DNA of 64,000 nucleotides, from assembly GCA_945901845.1 (NCBI GenBank), contig CAMDLR010000004.1:1-64000 (forward strand). Reading direction: 5' to 3'. Numbering within the stretch: the stretch's first letter is position 1; each line of letters starts with the position of its first letter. A program made the position numbers and the translations under genes. Positions 25,843 to 33,990 of the stretch are shown piece after piece. The stretch is from Sediminibacterium ginsengisoli. GTDB lineage: Bacteria; Bacteroidota; Bacteroidia; Chitinophagales; Chitinophagaceae. The notes beneath the pieces were generated by a model, which saw only the letters and a program-made list of their open reading frames with translations, was not told the DNA's origin and did not search any database.

Positions 25843-26211
25843 GGGGTCGTACTGGTTTTGACAGCATAGGTTATTGTTGGTGTAAGCATGCAGTGCGTTG
25901 TGTAATTAGCACTTCAATCTGAATACTCAAACTTCAAATGGCAATACTCAGTATGCCATGGCTGCTTAATCAGTGATTAAGTAACCATTTGGGCCGCCGC
26001 ACAGGTTCGCTTATTTCCATGTGCCGTCGCCGACTCAAATCAAAATAAGATGCTGCAATAGAAGGCTGTGACTATTGCTTAAGATTATCCAGCTAAGCGT
26101 TAGGTTGGTTTGTTCGTTCCCGGCCTTTCGTCTACAATGAATACCGAAATAAGCATGTAGAAAGCTAATGGTCACGATGTTTGGACAGGGGTTCGACTCC
26201 CCTCGACTCCA
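25843..26211 (+). ncRNA. ssrA: Transfer-messenger RNA; tag peptide (A)GNTQYAMAA
   Basis: 5' GGGGTCGTACTGGTTTTGACAG pairs with 3' CGACTCC; T-arm GGGTTCGACTCCC; tag ORF ggc aat act cag tat gcc atg gct gct taa at 25940-25969. Confidence 0.97.
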
Positions 26212-26214
26212 CAG

Positions 26215-33498: not shown

Positions 33499-33575
33499 GG
33501 ACTAAAAATACAATTTCTGTAGTTGATTTTAACAATCATTTTGCTAATAGTTGTTAGGATATCAATATAAAATCG

Positions 33576-33583
33576 TACTTTTG
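33576..33583 (+). promoter_or_regulatory. TAnnTTTG -7 element (TACTTTTG)
   Basis: Perfect match, 7 nt before the left arm of the leader inverted repeat. Confidence 0.65.
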
Positions 33584-33589
33584 CACCTG

Positions 33590-33701
33590 AATTGAACAAT
33601 AACCCTAATAACCATCTACTTGCGCCTGTCGCATCTGATATATAAGGTTCACTTTACGATTACGGCCCCAGTGCCAGCCATTTGAATTTACTTGTTCAAT
33701 T
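33590..33701 (+). other. Candidate structured 5' leader RNA
   Basis: AATTGAACAA (33590-33599) is perfectly complementary to TTGTTCAATT (33692-33701); internal hairpins TGCG-CCTGT-CGCA (33621-33633) and GGC/GCC (33664-33675) are possible. Confidence 0.45.
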
Positions 33702-33731
33702 TAACGATTCAAAATTTTAAATACATATACA

Positions 33732-33935
33732 ATGAACAGTAATGCTATGCCTGCTATCGTACAAATCGATACAGACAACCTAAAAAAGTTAACAACAGAA
33801 GTTAAAGAAACAGTTGCAAGCGCCGAAGTAGGTGTAAACAATGCACAAATACGTAAAACATTTGGAATTACAGATTTGTGGGCTATCAGAAAAAATGCAA
33901 AGCCTACAAGGGCGGGATCCAATAGAAACTTCTAA
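33732..33935 (+). CDS. Small hypothetical protein, 67 aa
   Basis: MNSNAMPAIVQIDTDNLKKLTTEVKETVASAEVGVNNAQIRKTFGITDLWAIRKNAKPTRAGSNRNF; bounded by promoter/leader and terminator. Confidence 0.7.
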   Translation: MNSNAMPAIVQIDTDNLKKLTTEVKETVASAEVGVNNAQIRKTFGITDLWAIRKNAKPTRAGSNRNF

Positions 33936-33971
33936 AAAAATAAGGGCTCATATATGGGCCCTTATTTTTTT
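33934..33971. terminator. Bidirectional intrinsic terminator
   Basis: AAAAAAATAAGGGC / GCCCTTATTTTTTT 14-bp stem between the small ORF and dnaG. Confidence 0.88.
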
Positions 33972-33990
33972 AGTCTTATTGTTTGATTAT

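Follow-up and report, generated by a model that had tools for sequence, protein, structure and literature searches.

A candidate structured leader RNA and its small-protein gene family in the Chitinophagaceae

A short transcription unit in the window (the whole 64,000-nucleotide stretch of DNA analysed), which belongs to a Chitinophagaceae genome of 2.1 Mb, joins a folded 5' leader to the gene of a 67-aa protein, and the two represent new families, one of RNA and one of protein, in an arrangement of a known kind. Comparison of homologs shows that selection acts on the leader as an RNA structure, with pairs kept by compensatory change, and the small protein looks like a real, undescribed family. 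The linkage of the leader to one gene family only is more in keeping with a dedicated or autogenous control element than with a general metabolite riboswitch. The favoured reading, given slightly more than even confidence, is that the leader is a dedicated cis-acting element, which controls one small protein, perhaps autogenously, through its translation or its stability. Few structured leaders have been catalogued in Chitinophagaceae, and Bacteroidota mostly start translation without Shine-Dalgarno (SD) pairing, so that RNA control must often work differently there. The new RNA and small-protein families form a testable pair, offering a covariance model, a conserved loop, and targets for compensatory mutations.

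The transcription unit and its small protein

The features of the unit are collected in Table 1. Its promoter can be compared with the Bacteroidota consensus, TTG-N17-23-TAnnTTTG. A sequence check finds the promoter, the P1 arms, both hairpins, and the open reading frame (ORF) where an earlier, sequence-only reading of this DNA had placed them. The P1 arms, AATTGAACAA and TTGTTCAATT, are perfectly complementary and form a 10-bp stem closing a 112-nt domain, and the ORF start codon follows 30 nt after this stem. The terminator (dG -25.1, z -8.6) is also present after the ORF as claimed, with a stem longer than the 14 bp proposed for it. The earlier description of a self-contained monocistronic unit, comprising a structured, selected leader RNA and an ORF of no known family, is thus upheld. 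The left neighbours of the unit are an oppositely oriented gene for a 128-aa lipoprotein-like product and crcB, while dnaG, on the right, reads towards it (names assigned from sequence). A second AACGATTC copy is found directly after P1 (33703-33710) in the window and in some of its close relatives (L033, L035, and L039), and is absent from the remote homologs.

Table 1. Features of the leader and small-protein unit, in window coordinates.
Feature	Position	Strand	Basis or remark
TTG of the Bacteroidota-type -33 element	33551..33553	+	sequence; 22 nt 5' of the -7 box
-7 promoter box TACTTTTG, TAnnTTTG type	33576..33583	+	sequence
P1 5' arm AATTGAACAA	33590..33599	+	sequence, folding; P1 covaries across the family
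P2-type hairpin TGCG-CCTGT-CGCA	33621..33633	+	compensated in L033 and L036 (G-C to U-A)
P4-type stem, 5' arm AAGGTT	33644..33649	+	pairs with 33676-33682; U.G here is U-A in L034, L038, and L039
Conserved loop TTTACGATTAC (family consensus NNACGAUU)	33653..33663	+	ACGRT enrichment upstream of family ORFs
Accessory hairpin GGC-CCCAGT-GCC, lineage-specific	33664..33675	+	shifted-register 3-bp GC stem in some close relatives
P4-type stem, 3' arm AGCC-A-TT, bulged A	33676..33682	+	close-relative comparison
P1 3' arm TTGTTCAATT	33692..33701	+	sequence, folding, close relatives, alignment-free arm test
67-aa small-protein ORF (VMPSIVQ...EVKETVA...DLWNIRR family)	33732..33935	+	homologs, third-position bias of changes
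Codons 8-9, position of RNA-level constraint	33753..33758	+	TCT ATT in most homologs; GCT ATC in the window
Intrinsic terminator, 19-bp stem, 4-nt loop	33932..33973	+	starts at the ORF end

A protein search retrieved homologs from 107 of 299 Chitinophagaceae genomes, covering 58 of 104 genera, and none from outside the Chitinophagaceae in a sample of 297 genomes of the phylum, every match falling within the family. Because homologs are this widespread, and because the changes between close relatives fall mainly at third codon positions, the ORF is accepted as a real coding gene under selection. In the protein consensus, VMPSIVQ is followed by EVKETVA and then by DLWNIxR; the C-terminal DLWxIR motif, singled out in the sequence-only reading, recurs together with the leader. 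The 67-aa protein gives no profile match above the curated cut-offs of Pfam, NCBIfam, and PHROGs, and nothing credibly related to it was found among solved structures. AlphaFold predicts two helices (residues 14-28 and 46-55; pLDDT 66, pTM 0.26) and no confident fold, the first helix being acidic and the second basic and tryptophan-containing. A phage or plasmid origin of the gene was considered and rejected, as neither IMG/VR contigs nor PLSDB contain relatives.

In genus g1, the gene is present in 61 of 147 genomes (E<=0.001), and many small genomes are without it, which suggests loss during genome streamlining. Many of the g1 genomes without the gene measure 1.2-2.1 Mb; the window genome, at 2.1 Mb, retains it.

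Structure and covariation of the leader

The folding energy of the window leader is ordinary (z -1.5 and -0.9) and Rfam contains nothing that matches it (the sequence-only reading had named an Rfam match as grounds for reclassification); only comparison could, therefore, decide whether the leader is real. When the whole window and 15 homologous loci were searched against Rfam 15, no family reached its gathering score except the tmRNA located elsewhere in the window (25843-26214; RF00023, 121 bits), and no match was confined to the window leader even at E up to 5. The sub-threshold matches (mir-5881 and L20 leader) were discarded, being driven by the terminator hairpin. A literature search, covering the main texts in an incomplete collection, returned no description of the leader or of the protein family.

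Remote homologs carry a leader of about 90 nt at the same position and with a similar layout, beginning just after a TAnnTTTGC box. In 83 family members, a TAnnTTTG-type box lies 115-155 nt (median 132) 5' of the start codon. The architecture comprises a closing stem (P1), a hairpin (P2), and a P3/P4 arm with a near-invariant ACGAUU loop. Three covariance models were built: R1, from a five-leader seed, and R2 and R3, extended to 32 and then 51 sequences. In the seed alignment of R1 (A3), an A was added to one sequence to help the alignment; R2 and R3 contain natural sequences only, which R1 had retrieved.

Double changes were found at 20 of 22 pairs in the first alignment and at all 22 in the larger one, a result that none of 500 shuffles equalled, although such pair counts are inflated by the fitting of alignments A4 and A5 to the structure. 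The larger alignment holds 191 double-change cells, against a shuffled mean of 60, and the covariation score is 0.49, against 0.18 after shuffling and 0.07-0.10 in slid controls. P1, in which a lack of covariation would have counted against the sequence-only reading, covaries across the family (e.g., CTGAGCG/CGCTCAG, TTCGGGA/TCCCGAA, AACCGGG/CCCGGTT, and TTGAACAA/TTGTTCAA). An alignment-free test, which covers P1 only, scored own arms at 16.1 and swapped arms at 14.3 +/- 0.27, with a maximum of 15.3 in 2000 swaps; own arms thus beat swapped arms by about seven standard deviations. RNAalifold, run independently on a MAFFT alignment, recovered P1 and P2 and not P3/P4, which makes P3/P4 less certain than P1.

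Of 141 distinct family ORFs, 87 have the loop motif ACGRT at a distance of 45-110 nt upstream, compared with 8 of 174 control windows; the ACGAUU loop is absent from some family members. Outside the loop, few bases are invariant, and the leader sequence changes fast within one genus.

The window leader and those of its close relatives (which include Sediminibacterium MAGs) are missed by all three models, and R3 misses the window leader even at E up to 10. By its position, promoter, P1 sequence type, and ACGAUU motif (76 nt upstream of the start codon), it is assigned to the family as a divergent form. P1 and the hairpins are kept among the close relatives. Support for P2 and P4 in this lineage comes from eight sequences. 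Among these, one compensatory change (G-C to U-A) occurs in the TGCG hairpin, U.G gives way to U-A in the AAGGTT/AGCC stem, and some sequences re-form the GC hairpin in a shifted register. The possibility that the window leader encodes a leader peptide (TTG-AAC-...) was rejected: a stop codon interrupts this frame in L036 and in remote homologs, and it is, therefore, unconserved.

The RNA element may extend into the coding sequence. TCT encodes Ser8 in 48 of 51 representatives of the leader-bearing subfamily, versus 34 of 174 later serine codons (P about 5e-23, an optimistic value, as the codon tests treat homologs as independent). Ser3 is likewise AGT in 26 of 27 cases, and ATT encodes Ile9 in 42 of 47; the third base of Pro7, Val5, and Val10 varies much more. 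An interaction in which the ACGAU loop would pair with codons 9-10 (AUYGU) was rejected: it is possible in SIV members but broken by an A.C mismatch in SII members (L005, L009, L013, L014, L018, L051, and L153).

Linkage to the gene and possible modes of control

In 399 family genomes, R3 gives 39 matches at E<=0.001, one per genome. Comparison of positions places 38 of them just in front of a family ORF, at a distance of a few tens of nt; the lone exception, in genome G479, is spurious. This near-exclusive linkage, together with the single copy per genome, points to a dedicated element and away from a general metabolite riboswitch. The MPS-type N-terminus and the ACGRT leader also co-occur (Fisher P about 1e-10). 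Weak model matches outside the family sit in unrelated places, and further weak matches of R1, R2, or R3 (L060, L129-L132, and L204) were set aside as having no family ORF downstream. Two neighbours of leader-type genes recur often, the gene lying upstream of a 4-alpha-glucanotransferase-like gene at 30 loci and downstream of an Hsp70-like gene at 21; as the window lineage has the gene at another site, this looks like an inherited neighbourhood rather than a functional link.

In the favoured mechanism, the mRNA would start a few nt before the folded leader, which P1 closes; inside P1, besides P2, the P3/P4 arm presents the conserved ACGAUU loop, and about 30 A/U-rich nt separate the leader from an ORF of 60-70 aa. 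The leader would act in cis on translation or mRNA stability, a level of action suggested because no terminator lies between leader and ORF. The loop may be read by a trans-acting factor, most likely a protein dedicated to this gene, and possibly by the small product itself, which would make the control autogenous. A bolder and quite tentative extension is that the folded leader and the first codons (frozen CCN-UCU-AUU) make up a single recognition site for the small protein or its partner, so that the short mRNA would be a self-contained feedback circuit and the leader an undescribed Chitinophagaceae RNA class. Sequestration of an SD sequence by P3b (UUUCUCCC) was rejected, since own and swapped duplex energies do not differ (P=0.36) and the window gene is without an SD. 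A search for alternative pairing that could switch the start region found none (leader-RBS, P=0.64).

A compact multi-arm fold with a conserved unpaired loop is also what a riboswitch would display, in which case the leader would bind a small molecule or ion and thereby control the small protein. There is a precedent: the Downstream-peptide motif, which sits before ORFs of 17-100 aa of unknown family (PMC2864571), later proved to be a glutamine riboswitch controlling small peptides (PMC6316151). Nevertheless, this explanation is unlikely: the leader is tied to one gene family and to no metabolic gene, no expression platform was seen, and invariant bases are scarce beyond the loop, the sequence changing quickly within a single genus. 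The conserved loop could also serve a dual-function RNA, the leader or the whole transcript of about 380 nt pairing in trans with other mRNAs via ACGAUU or UUUCUCCC while also encoding the protein, and such a role would suit a short transcript made autonomous by a promoter of its own and a strong terminator; however, in most members about 30 nt separate the end of P1 from the start codon, and this tight linkage of leader and ORF favours action in cis, so that a trans-acting role appears distinctly improbable.

A passive role, as a 5' stabiliser or insulator that holds the start region open and regulates nothing, is of similarly low probability. Pairing is indeed weaker between a leader and its own ORF than between a leader and a swapped ORF, but such a device would need neither a conserved ACGAUU loop nor a constraint on codons 8-9, and the model leaves the window start region only about half unpaired (0.46). 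A chance inverted repeat before a spurious ORF would agree with the ordinary folding energy of the window leader, but is refuted by the covariation and the ORF conservation and is hardly credible.

For the dedicated cis-acting leader, the nearest precedent in layout is the same Downstream-peptide motif (RF01704, type 2 glutamine riboswitch), which likewise has a structured 5' UTR, a transcription start just upstream, and a short ORF whose family was formerly unknown. In cyanobacteria, small inactivating peptides are under the control of glutamine riboswitches. The motif differs in being cyanobacterial and present in multiple copies per genome, and the leader gave no match to the Rfam families RF01704 and RF01739. 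Bacteroidota ribosomal protein leaders (e.g., S4 and L13), which are thought to be read by their product, are similarly lineage-restricted and linked to one gene or operon (PMC7247131), whereas the downstream gene is not a known ribosomal protein here, and product binding is putative. In Flavobacteriales, rpsU, encoding the small basic protein bS21, is controlled autogenously at translation initiation (PMC9976891), which resembles the autogenous control proposed here for a small Bacteroidota protein. That control uses an extended SD and an anti-SD (PMC9976891), whereas the window gene has no SD and coupling through one is unsupported.

Paralogs and other leaders

Leaderless paralogs open operons with genes which we take to be PadR-like and PspC-like (13-14 loci; L045, L097-L099, L105, L107, L110, L112, L114-L117, and L120). 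They encode a homologous protein with EVKETVA and ADLWNIQR motifs but carry no structured leader of this type. Just upstream of their operon promoter lies a near-invariant palindrome, GGTACTATGTGTTGCATAGTACC, presumably a PadR operator from its appearance. These paralogs tie the protein family to PadR-PspC (envelope stress) operons and provide a first functional lead. Tandem paralog copies occur at L111 (three) and at L116 and L121 (two each).

Different leaders of about 100 nt precede the family ORF at eight loci (L006, L029, L073, L084, L100, L101, L109, and L122). Several of them share a TTGCCTG-like segment late in the 5' UTR, and they possibly represent further leader classes.
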